A stretch of 64,000 bases of DNA from Alteromonas sp. CI.11.F.A3 (GTDB taxonomy: Bacteria > Pseudomonadota > Gammaproteobacteria > Enterobacterales > Alteromonadaceae). Location: positions 1,736,001-1,800,000 of the forward strand of contig NZ_CP136708.1 in the NCBI RefSeq assembly GCF_032925565.1, read 5' to 3'. A model generated the notes under the pieces. It did no database searches, had not been told where the DNA came from, and saw only the letters and a list, made by a program, of their open reading frames with translations. The translations under genes and the position numbers were made by a program. Shown here piece by piece: positions 55,491 to 64,000 of the stretch (its first letter is position 1; each line of letters begins with the position of its first letter).

Positions 55491-56255
55491 GTGGATTTAG
55501 CAACCGTCATAGGTATGTTGGGCGCCATCGGCTTTGTAGTAATGGCCATGGTTATGGGTGGCAGTATTGCCATGTTCATCAACGTACCGTCTATCTTGAT
55601 CGTATTTGGTGGCACCCTTTTCGTTATTTTATCCCAATACACTTTAGGGCAGTTCTTTGGTGCAGGTAAAATTGCAGGCAAAGCATTCATGTTCAAAATT
55701 GATACGCCTGAAGACTTAATTGAAAAAATTGTTGAGATGGCCGATGCAGCACGTAAAGGCGGTTTTCTTGCATTAGAAGAAGCTGAAATTGACAATCCGT
55801 TTATGCAAAAAGGTGTAGACATGCTGGTTGATGGTCACGACATAGAAGTGGTCAGAGAAACCTTAGCGAAAGATATTTCTATGACCACCGAGCGACACGA
55901 ATTTGGTGCCACCATATTTAAAGGTATGGGTGATATCGCACCAGCAATGGGAATGATTGGAACCCTGATTGGTCTGGTGGCCATGCTTTCCAACATGGAT
56001 GATCCTAAATCGATTGGACCAGCGATGGCGGTAGCACTATTAACTACTTTGTATGGTGCATTCCTTGCCAACATTATCTGCCTACCCATGGCGGTAAAAC
56101 TCGGTAACCGCGCTCAAGAAGAAAAGCTTAACCAAATGCTAGTACTCGATGGCATTGTGGGTATTGCTGATGGACAAAACCCGCGTGTTATCGAAGGTAT
56201 ATTGAAAAACTATCTAGCGGCAAGTAAACGCGGTACGGGCGCTGAGGACGAATAA
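55491..56255 (+). CDS. pomA: Sodium-driven flagellar stator protein PomA
   Basis: PomA with PomB forms the ion-conducting stator that turns the polar flagellum. The 254 residues have four membrane helices and align closely with Vibrio PomA: start MDLATVIGMLGAIGFVVMAM, then MADAARKGGFLALEE and PAMGMIGTLIGLVAMLSNMDDP. The cytoplasmic loop between helices 2 and 3 carries the charged residues that contact FliG. The start is GTG 55491 with GGAAG upstream. It overlaps pomB by one base. The sodium assignment rests on similarity to PomA rather than MotA. Confidence 0.93.
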   Translation: MDLATVIGMLGAIGFVVMAMVMGGSIAMFINVPSILIVFGGTLFVILSQYTLGQFFGAGKIAGKAFMFKIDTPEDLIEKIVEMADAARKGGFLALEEAEIDNPFMQKGVDMLVDGHDIEVVRETLAKDISMTTERHEFGATIFKGMGDIAPAMGMIGTLIGLVAMLSNMDDPKSIGPAMAVALLTTLYGAFLANIICLPMAVKLGNRAQEEKLNQMLVLDGIVGIADGQNPRVIEGILKNYLAASKRGTGAEDE

Positions 56256-57184
56256 TGGCTGAAGAAGAGTGCCCAAAATGTCCTCCCGAGGGGCTTCCTG
56301 CATGGATGGGGACCTTCGCGGATTTAATGTCGTTGCTTATGTGCTTCTTTGTACTGTTGCTCTCATTTTCAGAAATGGATGTACTGAAGTTCAAGCAAAT
56401 AGCGGGCTCTATGAAGTTTGCCTTTGGGGTGCAAAACAAAATTGAAGTGAAAGACATCCCTAAAGGCACCAGTGTTATTGCGATGGAATTCAGACCCGGT
56501 CGTCCAGACCCGTCGCCTATCGATACTATTCAACAACAAACGATTGAGATGACCCAGCAAATGTTGGAGTTTCAAGCGGGGGATGAAGATTCTGCTGGCG
56601 GTAGGCAGAAACAAAGAGGCGAACAGCGTGGTGGTCAGTCACAACAAACGGCTACTGATCAGTCTTCATCTGAGTCACAAAGCTCAGACCAAACCCAGAC
56701 TGCTGAGTTAATGAAAAAAGTGGCGCAGCAGTTACAAAAGCAAATTCTTGATGGTGCAGTAGAATTAGAGTCTTTAGGTCAGCAACTGACTATTCGTATT
56801 AGAGAGAACGGTTCGTTTTCGGCCGGTTCTGCATTCCTACAACCTCAGTTCCAGCCTATCTTACGCAAAATTGGGGTGCTGTTAGCTGATGTGCCAGGGG
56901 AAATAGAAATATCAGGGCATAGTGACGGACAACACATTGCAAACGAGCTCTATCGTTCCAATTGGGATTTATCGTCTCAGCGTGCCGTAGCCGTAGCCGA
57001 AGCCATGCGGACAGCCCCAGGGTTCGATGAAAGCAGAATGTCGGTAGTAGGGAAGGCCGATACCGACCCTATGGTAGAAGATGCTACAACGCCGGCTGAC
57101 AGAGCGCGAAATAGACGGGTAGAGATTAATATTAATCAAGGTAAACCCATGACCTCTCAACCTATATCCGTGGTTGATGAATAA
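56255..57184 (+). CDS. pomB: Sodium-driven flagellar stator protein PomB
   Basis: Partner of PomA. A single membrane helix near residues 18-40 contains Asp23 (FADLMSLL), equivalent to the ion-binding Asp24 of Vibrio PomB. A Gln/Ser-rich linker (about residues 105-150) precedes an OmpA-like peptidoglycan-binding domain with SGHSDGQHIANELY...LSSQRAVAVAEAM. It is 309 residues long. A clear terminator follows. Confidence 0.94.
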   Translation: MAEEECPKCPPEGLPAWMGTFADLMSLLMCFFVLLLSFSEMDVLKFKQIAGSMKFAFGVQNKIEVKDIPKGTSVIAMEFRPGRPDPSPIDTIQQQTIEMTQQMLEFQAGDEDSAGGRQKQRGEQRGGQSQQTATDQSSSESQSSDQTQTAELMKKVAQQLQKQILDGAVELESLGQQLTIRIRENGSFSAGSAFLQPQFQPILRKIGVLLADVPGEIEISGHSDGQHIANELYRSNWDLSSQRAVAVAEAMRTAPGFDESRMSVVGKADTDPMVEDATTPADRARNRRVEININQGKPMTSQPISVVDE

Positions 57185-57207: not shown

Positions 57208-57246
57208 CAAAAAGGGCGAATCAGATGATTCGCCCTTTTATTTTGT
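57208..57246 (+). terminator. Intrinsic terminator after pomB
   Basis: AAAAGGGCGAATC, loop AGAT, GATTCGCCCTTTT followed by ATTTT: a 13-bp perfect stem. Closes the pomAB unit. Confidence 0.92.
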
Positions 57247-57333: not shown

Positions 57334-58587
57334 CTAGCGTTGCAGGGCTTCTCTGTGATGTGGCTTAGATATTACTAATTGCACAGTGCTAATGGTTCTT
57401 TCTAAAAAACCACCTTCGCAGTATTTTAAATAGTAAATCCACATCCGCATAAAGCGTTCATCGTAACCGTCGTTTAGTAACGCTTCTTTAGCGCTAATAA
57501 AAGCCTCGTACCAATGATTTAGCGTTTGGGCGTAATCTAAGCCGATATCATGCAAATCTCGAATCATCATGTCGCTATAGCGCTTTAAATGAGCGTTTAA
57601 CTGATATTGTGAGGGCAGGAATCCACCAGGGAAGATGTATTTTTGAATGAAATCCACACTGCTTGCGTAACTTTCATAACGCCTATCATCGATGGTGATG
57701 GATTGTAGCAACATTAGCCCATCGTCTTTCAACAACGATGAACACTTCTCAAAAAAGTTACCTAAGTAGTCTTTTCCTACAGCTTCGATCATTTCTATTG
57801 AAACCAGCTTATCGTATTTACCATCTAGCAGGCGATAGTCTTTTTTCAGCAAAGTGACTTTGTCAGACACCTGCGCGCGCTCAATCCACTGCTCTGCCCA
57901 GGCATATTGCTCTTCAGAGATAGTTGTGGTGGTCACATTACAACCATAATGCTTAGCCGCATACACTGCCAAACCACCCCAACCGGTACCAATTTCTAAA
58001 AGATGGTCACCTTCGGTTAACTGAAGCTTGTCACAAATTGTTTTAAGTTTGTGATTTTGTGCCTCTTCTAAACTGGCATCAATATCAGGATAAATTGCCG
58101 ATGAATACATCATGGTGTTATCAAGAAAGCGTGTGTAAAGCTTATTTCCTAAATCGTAATGGGCTTCAATATTTTTCTTGGCTTGGTCTTGTGTGTTGCG
58201 GCGGGCAAAGTGCTGAATTTTTAAAATAGGCATGGAAATCCATTTAAACTTGTTCTCCCACGCATCAAGGGTAGATAAATTACGCGCAAAAATTTGCACT
58301 ACAGCCGTAACATTGTCGCTTTCCCACAGGCCATCCATATAGGCTTCACCTGCACCCACGCTGCCGCCCAATAATAGTTGGCGATAGGCTTTTACGTCTT
58401 TAAAATTAATAGTTGCGTGCAAATCGTCGTTGGGGTTACCCAAAGAGGCAATCGTACTGCCATTTTCCATGATGGTAAGTGAACCATGTGGAAGTTTCTC
58501 TAAACACTTTAAAAATGCGCGCCTACAAACCTTGTCAAAAAGAGACGCTTCTGAAGGGGTACTAAATACAGATTCACCGGAAGACAT
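57334..58587 (-). CDS. Cfa-like S-adenosylmethionine-dependent fatty-acid methyltransferase
   Basis: Cyclopropane-fatty-acyl-phospholipid synthase family, 417 residues (E. coli 382). The SAM motif is LEIGTGWGGLAVYA near residues 198-210, and EAHYDLGNKLY (141-151) is the family signature. By my alignment with E. coli Cfa, the bicarbonate-site residues Cys139 and His266 are replaced by Ser163 (YSSAIY) and Gln295 (LLQSIT), while Glu268, Tyr360 and Cys390 are kept. So it may methylate without forming a ring. It is last of a five-gene operon with an FAD oxidoreductase and DUF1365. Plant enzymes of this family carry a fused FAD-oxidase-like domain, a hint that the two proteins act together. Confidence 0.88.
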   Translation of the reverse strand: MSSGESVFSTPSEASLFDKVCRRAFLKCLEKLPHGSLTIMENGSTIASLGNPNDDLHATINFKDVKAYRQLLLGGSVGAGEAYMDGLWESDNVTAVVQIFARNLSTLDAWENKFKWISMPILKIQHFARRNTQDQAKKNIEAHYDLGNKLYTRFLDNTMMYSSAIYPDIDASLEEAQNHKLKTICDKLQLTEGDHLLEIGTGWGGLAVYAAKHYGCNVTTTTISEEQYAWAEQWIERAQVSDKVTLLKKDYRLLDGKYDKLVSIEMIEAVGKDYLGNFFEKCSSLLKDDGLMLLQSITIDDRRYESYASSVDFIQKYIFPGGFLPSQYQLNAHLKRYSDMMIRDLHDIGLDYAQTLNHWYEAFISAKEALLNDGYDERFMRMWIYYLKYCEGGFLERTISTVQLVISKPHHREALQR

Positions 58588-58594
58588 GTAGTTA

Positions 58595-59323
58595 TTATTC
58601 CTGACTTTTCTTAGGGTGGTTATAAAGTGGCGTTCGTTTTATAAGTAACTTTAACGCCTGCCAATATATGCCAATCATTGTTCTAATGGTCATACTAGGT
58701 ATACGTTTCATAACCCGACTTAGATTCGCATTATCTAATGAAAGCCGTGTTAAATTTATTCCAGCACTGAATTCTCTATCGTCTCGAACACAGTCCATTA
58801 CCAATGCGAGGCGATGGCTAGGTTGCGTTATTCGCCATTTGTACATCATGTCCATAGGGTTAAACGGCGATACATGGAATGCTTTTGGTGTATCTGCTTG
58901 CAGTGCCAAATCGACCAAATAATAGTGTCGCTCATTCCAAGGGGTATTACTGACTTCTGCCAATACATGGGTAAAGGAATTGTCTTTACCCTTTAAATAA
59001 TAAAAATTAACAGGGCTGAAATACATTCCCCACATACGAAGCTGCCCAAGCATGTATACATCACCGCTTAAGGTATCCTCACTTAAACTGTTCATTTTTT
59101 CTAGTACGCTTTGGTCTAATGGCGTGTTGCTATCACCTAAGTAGTCTTCACGGTTAAAGCGTACTCTTGCTTTGGTATCAACCGAAAAGTGTTTCAAAGC
59201 CGCTGGCAAGGCATCAACTTCGCTTAACTTTATCCAGAATAAATAGATATGATAGTCGAACTTATGTTGGGTAGGTGAAAAGCGTTCGTGATACACCTTT
59301 CCTTCATAAATAGCGCTATCCAT
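58595..59323 (-). CDS. DUF1365 family protein
   Basis: Protein of 242 residues recognisable as DUF1365 by its start SAIYEGKVYHERFSPTQHKFDY, by NPVNFYYL-type text (here SPVNFYYLKGKDNSF) and by HVSPFNPMDMMYKWRIT. No catalytic role is established for the family; it is usually found between an FAD oxidoreductase and a Cfa-like methyltransferase, as here. It overlaps the upstream gene by one base and precedes the methyltransferase gene by 7 bases, so co-translation is likely. Confidence 0.9.
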   Translation of the reverse strand: MDSAIYEGKVYHERFSPTQHKFDYHIYLFWIKLSEVDALPAALKHFSVDTKARVRFNREDYLGDSNTPLDQSVLEKMNSLSEDTLSGDVYMLGQLRMWGMYFSPVNFYYLKGKDNSFTHVLAEVSNTPWNERHYYLVDLALQADTPKAFHVSPFNPMDMMYKWRITQPSHRLALVMDCVRDDREFSAGINLTRLSLDNANLSRVMKRIPSMTIRTMIGIYWQALKLLIKRTPLYNHPKKSQE

Positions 59324-60588
59324 CAGAGGTTAACTCCAAATCGCTCGCATACATCTAATGCGCTATGTACGCCGTCTTCATGAAAGCCGTTATACCAGTA
59401 GGCGCCACAAAAATGAAGATTATCAACACCGCATATTTGGCTTCGGCGCTGTTGTGCATTCACCATAATTTCACTAAATTGAGGGTGCGCATATTGATAA
59501 CTACCCAACACCGCGCTTTTATCAATTTCATTTATGTTATTAAGGGTGACGCAGTAGGTGTTCGCAGCGTCTAATCGCTGAAGAATATTCATGTCGTAAG
59601 TCACCGAAGCCGGTCTGTCTTCTTCGCCAGCATCGTCTTTTAATCGGTAATTCCAACTCGCCCATGCAAGCTTTCGCTTTGGAAGTTGGTTTGTATCTTT
59701 ATGCATAACAACGTCGTTTTGAGCAAAGCCAATGGCACCTAACACAGCTTGCTGAGCTTCGGTAGGGGTATCTAGCATGGCAAGGGCTTGGTCGCTATGG
59801 CAGGCGAAAACAACGTGGTCAAATGTGGATTGAGCGCCAGATGTGTCAGTGACCTGCCACATATCGCCTACTTTCTTAACATTGGTAACACCACAAGATA
59901 GCTTTATTTTGTCTTTAAAGCTGGCTGTTAACGGGGGGATATAAGTGCTAGAGCCTCCTTTAATGGTGTACCACTGTGGCCTGTCACTTATGTTCAATAA
60001 GCCATGGTTGTTAAAAAATTGGAGAAAGAAAGTCAGTGGGAACTGCCTAGTTTGAGCAAGACTTGCAGACCAAATAGCGGCGCACATGGGTAAGATATAA
60101 TAGCGAGCAAAGTCATCGCTTAGCTTTAGCTCGTTAATAACATCTTGAAGTGTCATTGAAGACGTATCGCGCTTTTCGGCAACAAAAGCCTTGCAGGCTT
60201 TGTTGAACTTCAGAATATCGCGCACAATACGCCAAAACCTCGGGCGCAATATATTCCGACGCTGTGCAAACAGACTATTTATCGTATTGCCATTGTACTC
60301 AATATTGGCCTTTTTACTGGTAACAGAAAAGCTCATTTCGGTGGGTTGATATGCTACATCAAGCTGTTTCATCAGCTTTATGAATCTAGGGTAGGTCCAA
60401 TCATTAAATACAATGAAGCCGGTATCGATATGTCGTTCAATGCCATCATCGTTAATCTTTTTTGTGGCAGTGTGCCCGCCAATGTAATCGTTGGCCTCAT
60501 AAACCGTTATATCAGCCGTTTTATTTAAAAAATACCCACAAGTCAGGCCTGAAATACCTGTCCCGATAATCGCTACATTTTTTGTCAT
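59323..60588 (-). CDS. FAD-dependent amine-oxidase-like oxidoreductase
   Basis: Flavoprotein of 421 residues. The N-terminal dinucleotide fold reads VAIIGTGISGLTCGYFL and continues YEANDYIGGHT, the GR2/amine-oxidase pattern. The C-terminus has the FAD-closing motif NLHFCGAYWYNGFHEDGVHSA. Such proteins accompany DUF1365 and Cfa-like enzymes in many bacteria and are fused to the methyltransferase in plants, so it may desaturate or oxidise the modified acyl chain. The substrate is inferred, not shown. 12 bases follow the SDR stop. Confidence 0.87.
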   Translation of the reverse strand: MTKNVAIIGTGISGLTCGYFLNKTADITVYEANDYIGGHTATKKINDDGIERHIDTGFIVFNDWTYPRFIKLMKQLDVAYQPTEMSFSVTSKKANIEYNGNTINSLFAQRRNILRPRFWRIVRDILKFNKACKAFVAEKRDTSSMTLQDVINELKLSDDFARYYILPMCAAIWSASLAQTRQFPLTFFLQFFNNHGLLNISDRPQWYTIKGGSSTYIPPLTASFKDKIKLSCGVTNVKKVGDMWQVTDTSGAQSTFDHVVFACHSDQALAMLDTPTEAQQAVLGAIGFAQNDVVMHKDTNQLPKRKLAWASWNYRLKDDAGEEDRPASVTYDMNILQRLDAANTYCVTLNNINEIDKSAVLGSYQYAHPQFSEIMVNAQQRRSQICGVDNLHFCGAYWYNGFHEDGVHSALDVCERFGVNL

Positions 60589-60600
60589 TGTAATTGTGCT

Positions 60601-61320
60601 CTACTGCTTTTCTCGCATCGATAGCGATAATTTCTTTTGTAATCCAACAGGTAAAATATGCATAAACCGCAGGATAAAGCCAAACATGCGGGGGAAAAAA
60701 ACGGTTTGCTTGTCGGTTTCAATACCTTTTAGCATAGACTCCGCCGCTTCGGTGGCCGTAATTTTCATTGGCATATCAAAATCATTTTTGTCGGTAAGCG
60801 GGGTTTCAACAAAGCCTGGCGATACCGCTTGAACTTTTATACCCCGGTCGTGTAAATCTACCTCTAAACTTTTCGTAAAATAGTGAAGGGCTGCTTTACT
60901 TGCCCCGTAAGCCTGAGATCGGGTAAATGGAAGAAGGCGAGCCATGCTGTCTACTATGACCAGTTTATCGCCTTTATCTAATGACGGAATAAGCGCTTCT
61001 ACACAGTGAACGACACCGAAAAAGTTCGGTTCAAAAACCCGTCTGAACATATCTGATTCAAATTCATCGATATCTACATATTCACAGGTACCGGCATTTA
61101 AAATGGCAATGTCGCACTTGACGTTTTGTAGCGCTCGTTTCGCATCTTCAAGAGAAGTGACATCAAATTGAAGCGGCCTAATATTTGGCTTCGTGCTCAG
61201 TTCATCTAATACATCTTGATTTCGGCCGCATGCAATGACTTGATAGCCTTTTTCTGCTGCATGAACCGCTAGCGCTTTGCCAATTCCCGAGGTTGCACCG
61301 GTAATGAGTAATGTCTTCAT
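60601..61320 (-). CDS. Short-chain dehydrogenase/reductase
   Basis: Classical SDR of 239 residues. The cofactor motif is TGATSGIGKALA (residues 7-18). NAG is at 75-77. The catalytic set is Ser125, Tyr138 and Lys142 (YGASK). The C-terminal 25 residues (FILRFMHILPVGLQKKLSLS) are amphipathic and may touch the membrane, fitting a lipid substrate. It overlaps the upstream SnoaL-like gene by 4 bases (ATGA). The specific reaction is unknown. Confidence 0.88.
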   Translation of the reverse strand: MKTLLITGATSGIGKALAVHAAEKGYQVIACGRNQDVLDELSTKPNIRPLQFDVTSLEDAKRALQNVKCDIAILNAGTCEYVDIDEFESDMFRRVFEPNFFGVVHCVEALIPSLDKGDKLVIVDSMARLLPFTRSQAYGASKAALHYFTKSLEVDLHDRGIKVQAVSPGFVETPLTDKNDFDMPMKITATEAAESMLKGIETDKQTVFFPRMFGFILRFMHILPVGLQKKLSLSMREKQ

Positions 61321-61745
61321 TTCGCTAACCTCTTTTTAATCTTCTTAACAAAGAACCCGAGCAAAGGAATGTGTTCGTAAACCATTTCCCCTAAATCATA
61401 GTAATCTTTGTGATAAACAATAATGTCATCCTTTACCGTTAGTTGGGTATTCCCATCTACAGTAATTAATTTATCGCTTTGCTTGAGTTTGAGGTTCATC
61501 GTCCAGTTAACAATATGAGTGATGCTGTTGCTACTCACTGGCGCTATCATTGATATATCAAACTGACAACGTTCGGCTTGTTCGAGTAAGTTTGCAAAAT
61601 ACTTCTGAACATCGTCAAGGCCGTGGTGAGTCGTGATAGGATCAACAAATGTTACGTTGGAAGCATAAATGTCTGCTAAATCATCTAGAGTGATTTGGCA
61701 TATATCGGCGTACATGGTCGAAAATCTATCTAATACAGTCATCAC
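61317..61745 (-). CDS. SnoaL/NTF2-like protein
   Basis: Cone-fold protein of 142 residues. The text LADIYASNVTFVDPITTHHGLDDVQKYFANLL (residues 22-53) is typical of nuclear-transport-factor-2-like or SnoaL proteins; later segments include HIVNWTMNL. These folds act as small isomerases or as binding subunits; I cannot assign a reaction. It is the first gene of the SnoaL-SDR-FAD-DUF1365-Cfa operon, whose members overlap or nearly touch. Confidence 0.82.
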   Translation of the reverse strand: MMTVLDRFSTMYADICQITLDDLADIYASNVTFVDPITTHHGLDDVQKYFANLLEQAERCQFDISMIAPVSSNSITHIVNWTMNLKLKQSDKLITVDGNTQLTVKDDIIVYHKDYYDLGEMVYEHIPLLGFFVKKIKKRLAK

Positions 61746-61928: not shown

Positions 61929-61958
61929 GTTTTACAAATAAAGCGGCGCGTCGGATCA
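61929..61958 (-). promoter_or_regulatory. Candidate ChrR-type sigma promoter for the lipid operon
   Basis: On the minus strand TGATCC (61958-61953) is followed after 18 bases by TAAAAC (61934-61929), pointing at the SnoaL-like gene 184 bases away. TGATCC is, as I recall, the -35 of Rhodobacter sigma-E (ChrR-controlled) promoters. The spacing is slightly long, so the call is tentative. Within 61746-62050 I see only this and the hairpin at 61893. Confidence 0.5.
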
Positions 61959-62050
61959 TTGCCCTTAGACTAAAGTGTGAAATTTTTTCCTTGGCGATCC
62001 AATTTGTTCACAGTGGCGTAATTGCTTATGACTAAAAGAGTTAAGAGTTT

Positions 62051-62626
62051 ATGAGTAAGACACCCATTCCACTATTTCCGTTATCTGCCCATTTGCTTCC
62101 AGAAGGACGTATGGCGTTACGCATTTTCGAGCCCAGATACACGCGCATGGTTAAGCAGGCATGCGCTGAAAACAAAGGGTTTGTGATGTGTATGCTAAAC
62201 GCATCTGGCGACAAATCGCGTAACGAGCATATTTATCCGATTGGTACCTACGCCAAGGTTGTTGACTTCGATTTACTTGATGATGGCTTGCTTGGCATAA
62301 AGGTTGCTGGATTAGAGTTAGTTGAGGTATCTGATGTAGCAGTTGAATCAGATGGGTTACGTACAGGACATTGTCGTTCTGTCGCGCCTTGGAACTGCGA
62401 AATATCACCTCAGCAGTTAGCGCCTATAAATGAGCGTTTGAAAGAGATTTTTGCGAAGTATACGGAGATAGCATCACTTTATGAAGAAACCCGGTTTGAC
62501 GACCCAATGTGGGTGTTAAGACGGTGGCTTGAATTGTTACCTGTAGATGGTGGACAAAAGCAGCAGTTTCTAAAAGAGGGTGGTGGTAAGAACTTACTTA
62601 ACTATCTGTATGCGTTAATTCGGTAA
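62051..62626 (+). CDS. LON substrate-binding domain protein
   Basis: Protein of 191 residues with the N-terminal domain of Lon protease but no ATPase or protease part. Landmarks are PLFPLSAHLLPEGRMALRIFEPRY near the start, GTYAKVVDFDLLDDGLLGIKVAG, and a C-terminal helical stretch. Stand-alone LON-domain proteins are common in proteobacteria, and their role is not established. It lies between the divergent lipid operon and the ECF sigma gene. Confidence 0.85.
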   Translation: MSKTPIPLFPLSAHLLPEGRMALRIFEPRYTRMVKQACAENKGFVMCMLNASGDKSRNEHIYPIGTYAKVVDFDLLDDGLLGIKVAGLELVEVSDVAVESDGLRTGHCRSVAPWNCEISPQQLAPINERLKEIFAKYTEIASLYEETRFDDPMWVLRRWLELLPVDGGQKQQFLKEGGGKNLLNYLYALIR

Positions 62627-62755: not shown

Positions 62756-63367
62756 ATGTTAGTTGGAATTCCTTTAGAACAAAGCAATAGTACGATTAAA
62801 CCGAAAGAATGCGCGGTTGAGATGTCTGATTACCTAGTAGAAGTCGCCCAAAAGCGTTGCAAAGCATCTTTTGCGCGGGTTTTTAATTATTTCGCTCCGA
62901 GACTTCGCTCATACGCGTTAAAGCAGATGGGTAACGAAGCACTCGCAATGGAGCTAGTACAAGACACCATGTCGAACGTGTGGCAGAAAGCCCATTTGTT
63001 TAATGCAGAAAAAGGTTCGCCATCTACGTGGATTTTCACTATTGCTCGAAACATTCGTTTTGATATGCTTCGTAAGCTTCAAAATCGCAAAGAAGATGTG
63101 TGTTCTGATGACCTATGGCCAGTATTATGTGAACAAACTGCTGACTTGAATGAAGCACCACTTGATGAACAAGTTACGTTAGAGCAAATCGGTTATTTGT
63201 TTGAATCACTTCCTGTTAAACAGAAAGCAGTGATTGAAGCCATTTATATTGATGGTAAATCTCAACAAGAAGTCGCTGATGAGTTAGATATCCCGCTAGG
63301 TACAGTTAAGTCGAGAACCCGCTTAGCACTTCAAAGATTAAAAGGTATGTTACAGAGTAATGATTAG
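62756..63367 (+). CDS. ECF sigma factor of the ChrR-controlled class
   Basis: Group IV sigma factor. Region 2 reads FNYFAPRLRSYALKQMG...LVQDTMSNVWQKAHLFNAEKGSPSTWIFTIARN, and region 4 reads LPVKQKAVIEAIYIDGKSQQEVADELDIPLGTVKSRTRLALQRL (landmarks, not continuous). FxxFAPR and KAHLFD-type text are shared with Rhodobacter RpoE. The frame opens at 62678; ATG 62756 gives 203 residues, and ATG 62822 (MSDYLVEVAQ) gives the typical family length, so the start is unsure. It overlaps the ChrR gene by 8 bases, which supports a sigma/anti-sigma pair. Confidence 0.9.
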   Translation: MLVGIPLEQSNSTIKPKECAVEMSDYLVEVAQKRCKASFARVFNYFAPRLRSYALKQMGNEALAMELVQDTMSNVWQKAHLFNAEKGSPSTWIFTIARNIRFDMLRKLQNRKEDVCSDDLWPVLCEQTADLNEAPLDEQVTLEQIGYLFESLPVKQKAVIEAIYIDGKSQQEVADELDIPLGTVKSRTRLALQRLKGMLQSND

Positions 63368-64000
63368 GTTCCACCCAAGTGCTCAACAACTCGTTTCATT
63401 TGTTGACGGAAATTTGTCCCCAGCGGTCTCGCTAATGGTTTCTGCACATTGTGATATGTGCAGTACGTGTCAGCGATTTGTGGAACAAGAAACTGAGCGC
63501 CTAGCTGGTTCGTTACTAGAAGATAATGGTTTTAAGCCAGTTGACCTTAAAGCCGATTACAGCGCAATGATTGCGCAAATTACCCAATCGCCTTCATCTG
63601 TTGAAGCCGATACCGGTTCACAACAGAAACAATCGCCCATAAAGCAGAATATAAGCACAGAAGTCAGTATTGCTGCTAACGATTCTATTGACCTTGATGG
63701 TAGAAACTTTGTCCTGCCACGAACGCTTCAGCGGTATAAAGAGAAGACCGGAGGTTGGTCTAGCTTGGTAGGTAAACTGTGGCAAGCCCCAGTAGATTTA
63801 GGTAGCCAAGGTGTAGCTAACTTTATTTACATGGGCAAAGGTGGAAGTGTTCCTGAACATACTCATCGAGGCACTGAATATACGTTAGTCATTAACGGCG
63901 AATTCAGTGACGGGCTCAATAACTACGATTCCGGCGATTTTATTTTTATGGATGGCCAAAATACCCATACTCCACGTTCTGACAATGCTCAAGGCTGCTT
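63360..64000 (+). CDS. chrR: ChrR-family zinc anti-sigma factor with cupin domain, 3' end cut by window
   Basis: The N-terminal zinc anti-sigma domain has His5, His30, Cys34 and Cys37 (HxxxCxxC), each one position from the Rhodobacter ligands as I remember them. The C-terminal cupin has His167, His169, Glu173 and His203, with the same spacing as the ChrR cupin metal site. In Rhodobacter ChrR releases sigma-E when singlet oxygen is present, and the same is expected here. About 213 residues are in the window, nearly the full expected length. ATG 63360 overlaps the sigma gene. Confidence 0.93.
   Translation, partial: MIRFHPSAQQLVSFVDGNLSPAVSLMVSAHCDMCSTCQRFVEQETERLAGSLLEDNGFKPVDLKADYSAMIAQITQSPSSVEADTGSQQKQSPIKQNISTEVSIAANDSIDLDGRNFVLPRTLQRYKEKTGGWSSLVGKLWQAPVDLGSQGVANFIYMGKGGSVPEHTHRGTEYTLVINGEFSDGLNNYDSGDFIFMDGQNTHTPRSDNAQGC

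Follow-up and report, generated by a model that had tools for sequence, protein, structure and literature searches.

A conserved Alteromonas operon predicted to make a furan fatty acid under sigma-E/ChrR control

Furan fatty acids are scavengers present in marine bacteria and fish, and reports of them in marine gammaproteobacteria include Shewanella putrefaciens (PMC3528120). In Rhodobacter sphaeroides, three proteins convert cis-vaccenate into the monomethyl furan acid 9M5-FuFA on phospholipids: UfaM, an S-adenosylmethionine (SAM) methylase (RSP2144); UfaD, a predicted NAD-FAD protein (RSP1091); and UfaO, a DUF1365 protein (RSP1090) (PMC7380195). Rhodopseudomonas palustris RPA2569-2571 (UfaM, UfaO, UfaD), which have consecutive gene numbers, do the same and are sufficient for furan acid in R. 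sphaeroides; the tested set contained no SnoaL or short-chain dehydrogenase/reductase (SDR) gene (PMC7380195). Halomonas carries the ufa genes three in a row, and its UfaM forms 11-methyloctadec-12-enoate in Escherichia coli (PMC12089945). The furan genes have been described as core members of the sigma-E/ChrR regulon of alpha- and gammaproteobacteria (PMC6852236). Here, we describe a five-gene locus of this type in Alteromonas sp. CI.11.F.A3 (RefSeq GCF_032925565.1, contig NZ_CP136708.1). The window is the whole 64,000-nucleotide stretch analysed, positions 1,736,001 to 1,800,000 of the forward strand. The genome comprises 4.66 Mb in one contig, the nearest named relatives of the window proteins are from Alteromonas, a common marine genus, and the DUF1365 protein of Alteromonas sp. 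MMG017 is 99% identical to the window copy. The operon is real, well conserved and an ordinary member of the already known furan pathway system; its interest lies in a SnoaL-SDR gene pair and in an active-site signature of UfaM, not in a new product.

Five open reading frames (ORFs), all on the minus strand, fill 57334-61745. The original prediction, made from the letters of the window, had called them one operon, and its limits and spacings agreed exactly with the ORF coordinates: the SnoaL-like and SDR genes overlap by 4 bases and the FAD and DUF1365 genes by 1, with gaps of 12 between SDR and FAD and 7 between DUF1365 and the Cfa-like gene. The predicted pair of an extracytoplasmic function (ECF) sigma factor and ChrR on the other strand was also found, with about 1.0 kb separating the sigma gene start from the operon's first gene; a gene for a Lon-substrate-binding-domain protein lying between operon and sigma gene had been overlooked. 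Pfam assigned the operon proteins to SnoaL_2, adh_short (SDR), Amino_oxidase/NAD_binding_8 (FAD), DUF1365 (PF07103, 243.7 bits) and CMAS (283.9 bits). The features are as follows.

57210-57239, both strands: bidirectional terminator-like hairpin between a MotB-like gene and the operon end
57334-58587, minus: ufaM-like gene for a CMAS-family SAM-dependent fatty acyl methyltransferase, predicted (Pfam, signature, tree) not to be a cyclopropane synthase
58595-59323, minus: ufaO-like gene for a DUF1365 protein, predicted to place O2-derived oxygen in the furan ring (function from PMC7380195)
59323-60588, minus: ufaD-like gene for an FAD-dependent oxidoreductase that is predicted to desaturate the methylated chain (function from PMC7380195)
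60601-61320, minus: SDR gene, with N99, S125, Y138, K142 and R33
61317-61742 (open frame to 61745), minus: gene for a SnoaL/NTF2-like protein with invariant D34, W80, D113 and D116
61931-61958, minus: sigma-E/ChrR-type promoter TGATCC-N16-TGTAAA, upstream of the operon
61995-62022, plus: sigma-E/ChrR-type promoter CGATCC-N16-CGTAAT, upstream of the Lon-domain, sigma and chrR genes
62051-62626, plus: gene for a Lon-substrate-binding-domain protein (Pfam LON_substr_bdg)
62756-63367 (open frame from 62678), plus: ECF sigma factor gene
63360-64000, plus: chrR anti-sigma factor gene, cut by the window end and ending at window-equivalent 64088

The SnoaL gene more likely starts at ATG 61742 (141 amino acids), because its four best homologs have that length, and the sigma gene more likely at 62756 (203 amino acids), because the ORF has the same length in three named Alteromonas loci.

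We estimate a probability of roughly 85% that the operon makes a membrane methylated furan fatty acid once light or singlet oxygen stress causes ChrR to release its ECF sigma factor. The freed factor would then act at a pair of back-to-back promoters, of which one serves the operon and the other, by autoregulation, lonSB-sigE-chrR. UfaM would transfer a SAM-derived methyl group onto a cis-vaccenoyl (or shorter omega-7) phospholipid chain, shifting the double bond; UfaD would desaturate this product to a conjugated diene; and UfaO would insert oxygen from O2 and close the furan ring. Ring formation probably does not require the SDR and SnoaL proteins, which may act beside it, for example on oxidised furan lipids. 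Gene order, protein families, signature, phylogeny, conserved promoter sequences and co-occurrence were obtained here; the three enzyme reactions and the inducing signal are proposed by analogy with other bacteria. A modified membrane fatty acid had been suggested from the start, and the kinship of UfaM, UfaD and UfaO argues for one of the furan type, mostly known already.

The arrangement can be set against the described systems. In R. sphaeroides (RSP1091-1087 and RSP2144, governed by rpoE-chrR), the FAD and DUF1365 genes head the operon, as they head the ufa genes here; UfaM is encoded apart, whereas the window UfaM lies inside the operon. The window adds a SnoaL gene and a Lon-domain gene before the sigma gene, and its operon contains no MFS or DUF3833 gene, although a DUF3833 gene lies elsewhere in the genome. 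We take rpoE-chrR to lie beside RSP1091, and RSP1087 to be an SDR. Another likeness is a cluster of Aeromonas salmonicida (AXA69_RS13645-13670) with the same order of NTF2/SnoaL_2, SDR, FAD, DUF1365 and cfa genes, there followed by DUF2878; ChrR and LON-domain genes lie elsewhere in that genome and, within one experiment, showed a change of the same sign as the cluster, which was assigned no function there (PMC10012899).

The order FAD (UfaD), DUF1365 (UfaO), CMAS (UfaM) seen in the window recurs across Gammaproteobacteria and the wider phylum. With the own genome included in both samples, DUF1365 was present in 39/143 Gammaproteobacteria and in 153/398 genomes of the phylum sample. SnoaL matches were found in 58/59 Alteromonas genomes searched, own included; two of these carry internal stops (G169:C1:3595551-3595949, one TGA and three TAA; G181:C1:638859-639269, one TAA). 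Because the gene order recurs and SnoaL is kept in nearly every Alteromonas genome searched, the operon is more than a chance grouping. Of the 38 class loci outside the own genome, 37 had a UfaD and 35 a UfaM that passed the thresholds applied; the UfaM misses were two loci cut by contig ends (L061, L073) and one without a nearby UfaM (L059), and L073 had no nearby UfaD though its sequence continues. Three further locus sets make up 59 of the listed phylum-sample DUF1365 matches. The set of 20 loci that share the order or family had SnoaL in 19, SDR in 20, UfaM in 20 and ChrR in 8. The 20 other loci outside the class had UfaD in 20, UfaM in 16, ChrR in 11, SDR in 6 and SnoaL in 4. Finally, 19 “Rhodobacteraceae-like” loci, one family labelled from its gene arrangement, all had ChrR, sigma, UfaD and SDR, with UfaM in 8 and SnoaL in none. 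A tblastn search of a plasmid collection with DUF1365 returned 87 records, all below 60% identity, and added nothing.

The Cfa-like protein is predicted from its sequence to be of the UfaM type and not a cyclopropane synthase. The bicarbonate ligands of E. coli Cfa are Glu239, His266 and Tyr317 (PMC11387697). In an alignment, the window protein retained Glu and Tyr, had Gln in place of His and Glu-Ala in place of Glu-His, and so lacks the full Cfa ligand set. Gln stood at the His position in 83/83 ufa-locus copies, and the residue after Glu was Ala in 81 and Ser in 2; these loci were 39 from the class sample with Alteromonas loci and 44 others, the contig-cut L061 and L073 being left out (the class-sample alignment has 40 rows, with the window entered twice). 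Eleven Rhodobacteraceae-like genomes without ufaM in the locus each encode one UfaM-type protein elsewhere, with Gln in 11/11. The four other long CMAS matches of these genomes and two solved Cfas have Cys, Glu-His and His, and the His was kept in 6/6 Cfa-type proteins and in 12/12 of a second CMAS type described below. This signature was derived in the present analysis and is not a published criterion. In a tree of 71 rows, with ufa-locus copies thinned by half, locus-borne and unlinked UfaM formed one clade (support 100/95), with the window protein inside and the Cfas outside; the two solved Cfas sit on long branches and their placement is unsure. The UfaM assignment thus follows from clade membership and from Gln at the bicarbonate-binding His. 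In addition, the protein fell below the NCBIfam Cfa equivalog cut-offs (PRK11705, 304 versus 400 bits; CPFASynBruc, 297.1 versus 600). It is the sole full-length CMAS match in its genome, which holds three partial matches of at most 30.4 bits, one of them exceeding the Pfam cut-off. Gln for His may help annotators to tell UfaM from the many genes labelled cyclopropane synthase.

Control by ChrR and sigma-E, as originally proposed, is supported by conserved promoters, by the zinc ligands of ChrR, and by precedents in Vibrio cholerae (PMC5241685) and Shewanella (PMC4336711). The ECF sigma gene overlaps chrR, which encodes both an anti-sigma and a cupin domain, the arrangement of the sigma-E/ChrR (ECF11) group, and the anti-sigma part inside the window passes the TIGR02451 anti_sig_ChrR cut-off (130.9 versus 124.5). 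The best solved matches were R. sphaeroides ChrR (2z2s) and RpoE (2q1z). Aligned to 2z2s, all eight zinc ligands were kept: His and Cys of the anti-sigma site, and His, His, Glu and His of the cupin site. Seven of the eight ligands are numbered in PMC6852236. Shewanella RpoE2 promoters read TGATCC...CGTAAT with 16-base spacing, and the RpoE2-ChrR regulon of S. oneidensis includes the Lon-domain gene SO_1987 and the cfa gene SO_3379; unlike the window operon, the cfa operon there holds ybgA and phrB (PMC4336711). In V. cholerae, blue light substantially raises expression of the cfa gene VC1122, and VC1118 is among 21 genes checked by quantitative PCR; 159 light-regulated genes are ChrR-dependent, and the excerpt does not state whether VC1122 or VC1118 belongs to them (PMC5241685).

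Promoters of the TGATC...CGTA type precede both the operon and the sigma unit in the window. The operon promoter was present in 25/25 regions compared: 24 from Alteromonas (the own region, 3 named ones, and 20 taken from the 57 other SnoaL-matching genomes) and the more distant locus L196, L195 being dropped for lack of SnoaL. The last 20 Alteromonas regions are 4 kb long and stop short of ufaD-O-M; four other Alteromonas genomes, from the phylum sample, have a DUF1365 match and a SnoaL match on one contig, about 2 kb apart. The Lon-side promoter was found in 20/25 regions with the first limits and, after allowing for over-long ORF starts, in 24/24 Alteromonas regions and not in L196. Its -35 element is NGATCC, where N was never T in 24 regions. 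First-order Markov shuffles of the regions gave 11 and 5 of 10,000. The Lon-domain gene itself is present in 24/24 Alteromonas regions. The stretch scanned between it and the sigma gene contains no promoter site in 22/24 regions (L214 and L217 have one), and thus lonSB-sigE-chrR is probably a single autoregulated unit. In a scan of 100 loci, 35 had a site (shuffles, 45/5000). Eight of these (L050, L184, L185, L187, L189, L190, L193, L194) were discounted because they lie 178-231 bases upstream and read as coding Asp-Pro-x-(Gly/Ala)-x-Phe-Ile-Arg (in L050 and L184, within the end of a photolyase gene); 27 remain.

Several points weigh against a ChrR-controlled furan fatty acid operon. Genome-wide, the promoter consensus showed no enrichment: with 2 mismatches at most there were 283 matches, versus 445 for a reversed-pattern control. 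The window had 54 versus 47 expected at up to 3 mismatches, and conservation is what backs the promoter call. Outside Alteromonas, an upstream site was found in 2/37 class-sample loci, or 1/37 once coding coincidence was discounted. Kinship to RSP1090, RSP1091 and RSP2144 is drawn from family, gene order and other relatives, and chain specificity cannot be read from the sequence. Cyclic acids were also seen in the Halomonas UfaM strain (PMC12089945). A search of open-licence papers, seen as excerpts, returned no lipid or expression data on furan acids in Alteromonas. We regard Alteromonas as a likely further source of furan fatty acids, because a proven pathway sits behind conserved light-stress promoters.

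In their distribution, the SnoaL family and the SDR subfamily are tied to the ufa locus. Strong SnoaL matches (at least 137 bits in a search with an alignment of the locus SnoaL proteins, own genome included) occurred in 15/39 gammaproteobacterial genomes with DUF1365 and in 0/104 without, and all 15 lie inside the fetched 8-kb flanks of DUF1365. Three weaker matches (54.6, 44.1 and 39.9 bits) came from G007 and G137, which have no DUF1365, and from G059, where DUF1365 is on another contig. Fisher's P, uncorrected for kinship, was 3e-10 on the strong matches and 6e-9 once the weaker three were added. An SDR profile at 250 bits or more matched 23 genomes, 21/39 with DUF1365 and 2/104 without (G040, G008; P 2e-12), a threshold chosen after the list was seen and with at most 18 candidates scored per genome. 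The two genes are mostly adjacent and may stand ahead of the ufa genes, behind them or facing them; no SDR was found near the SnoaL gene of L046 or L163. Asp34, Trp80, Asp113 and Asp116 of SnoaL were kept in 23/23, and Asn99, Ser125, Tyr138, Lys142 and Arg33 of the SDR in 71/71 rows, with the window entered twice. In Shewanella decolorationis, one co-expression module groups SnoaL and SDR genes together with phrB and chrR (PMC8981235).

What the pair does bears on the least improbable alternative, in which SnoaL and SDR act after or instead of furan closure and yield a new hydroxylated, reduced or hydrolysed oxygenated fatty acid. The ties of both families to the locus and their conserved polar residues speak for it, and the solved chains nearest to the SnoaL profile were a limonene epoxide hydrolase (the best match, E 2.3e-6), YesE and SnoaL-like proteins. 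Assigning limonene epoxide hydrolase catalysis to SnoaL was nevertheless rejected, and we make no catalytic claim, because the alignment has no striking feature beyond an Asp-Tyr-x-Asp stretch. The original prediction saw in the pair room for a new product, and the comparison with R. sphaeroides does not support this: there the route from cis-vaccenate to 9M5-FuFA uses UfaM, UfaD and UfaO. When RSP1087, RSP1088 or RSP1089 was deleted singly in a chrR mutant, the fatty acid profile showed no detectable change (PMC7380195). An SDR gene takes the RSP1087 place in 19/19 Rhodobacteraceae-like loci, in none of which SnoaL was found, and in locus L140 UfaO (250 amino acids) and SDR (245) have the lengths of RSP1090 and RSP1087 (PMC7380195). 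Since furan acids are moreover known from marine gammaproteobacteria, a new end product is unlikely. We infer instead an accessory or repair role for the pair. One tentative version, which we hold to be rather doubtful, is a dedicated module for furan-lipid aftercare, in which an NTF2-fold enzyme (hydrolase or isomerase) and a reductase using NADPH would deal with the reactive epoxide or ring-opened (ene-dione) lipids that arise as furan acids trap singlet oxygen. If true, the gammaproteobacterial system would make a sacrificial scavenger, clear or recycle its products, and perhaps reset the ChrR signal. Searching open-licence papers, seen in part, with SnoaL-type terms together with UfaO or furan fatty acid, we found no assigned role. 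The pair marks a defined gap in the pathway that is open to testing. An NTF2-like protein of Cercospora has been linked to photosensitiser resistance; it belongs to another family, DUF1348, and was set aside (PMC4608573).

It is also improbable that the pathway stops early or uses another chain, with a methyl-branched unsaturated acid or a C16 furan analogue as main product. UfaM alone gives a methyl alkene in other hosts (PMC7380195, PMC12089945), and the unreadable chain specificity leaves room for the shorter analogue; however, the genes resembling ufaD and ufaO are intact and sit tightly against the ufaM-like gene, an arrangement shared with R. palustris and Halomonas. Searching solved structures with a DUF1365 profile gave no match. 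Far less credible is a plain cyclopropane operon, in which cyclopropane acids are the product of the Cfa-like protein and the remaining four genes have unrelated or supporting tasks: E. coli Cfa is the nearest solved structure by sequence (217 bits), several sources label the relatives cyclopropane-fatty-acyl-phospholipid synthase, and there are the Halomonas cyclic acids, but this outcome, named at the outset as one that would overturn the original prediction, is at odds with the Gln signature in every ufa-locus copy compared, the missed equivalog cut-off and a UfaD/UfaO gene order kept across classes, and we rejected it.

Other observations concern the regulon and its variants. As a regulon finder, the genome-wide promoter search was dropped, its matches being fewer than those of the reversed control. 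Seven one-mismatch sites were inspected: five lie inside ORFs of at least 100 amino acids on either strand, and two precede the Lon-domain gene and metK. The latter site, TGATCC-N16-CGTAAC, lies about 130 bases before metK (G000:C1:3912969-3912996, own genome; L083, L244). SAM supply for UfaM comes to mind as a thought only, and the site is not claimed: at 30 Alteromonas loci from 40 genomes matched, the element read TGATCC in 6, TGATCG in 14 and TGATCA in 1, and was not found in 9.

In 12 loci (L036, L038, L040, L042, L043, L047, L056, L057, L063, L165, L166, L175), the ufa genes have as neighbour a second, deep-branching CMAS-type methyltransferase that retains Glu-His and His, a candidate for further methylation such as FufM. 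Control by ChrR is not universal. In L165 (8994-13480), genes for a MerR-B12 regulator, presumably LitR-like, the second CMAS, DUF2878, DUF1295, DUF6134 and a lipocalin run into ufaD-O-M, and ChrR was not found in the locus; possibly, another light-type regulator acts on the same pathway there. Photolyase and 2-thiouracil desulfurase-DUF1722 domains are also encoded in L184 and L050, and in L184 ufaM is followed by DUF2878, Chalcone_3 and DUF3833. In the own genome, adjoining Chalcone_3-like and DUF3833 genes lie away from the ufa operon, at about 1213450-1214870 (G000:C1, L274). Right before the operon terminator, MotA/ExbB- and MotB/OmpA-type genes (window 55491-57184) come to their end.

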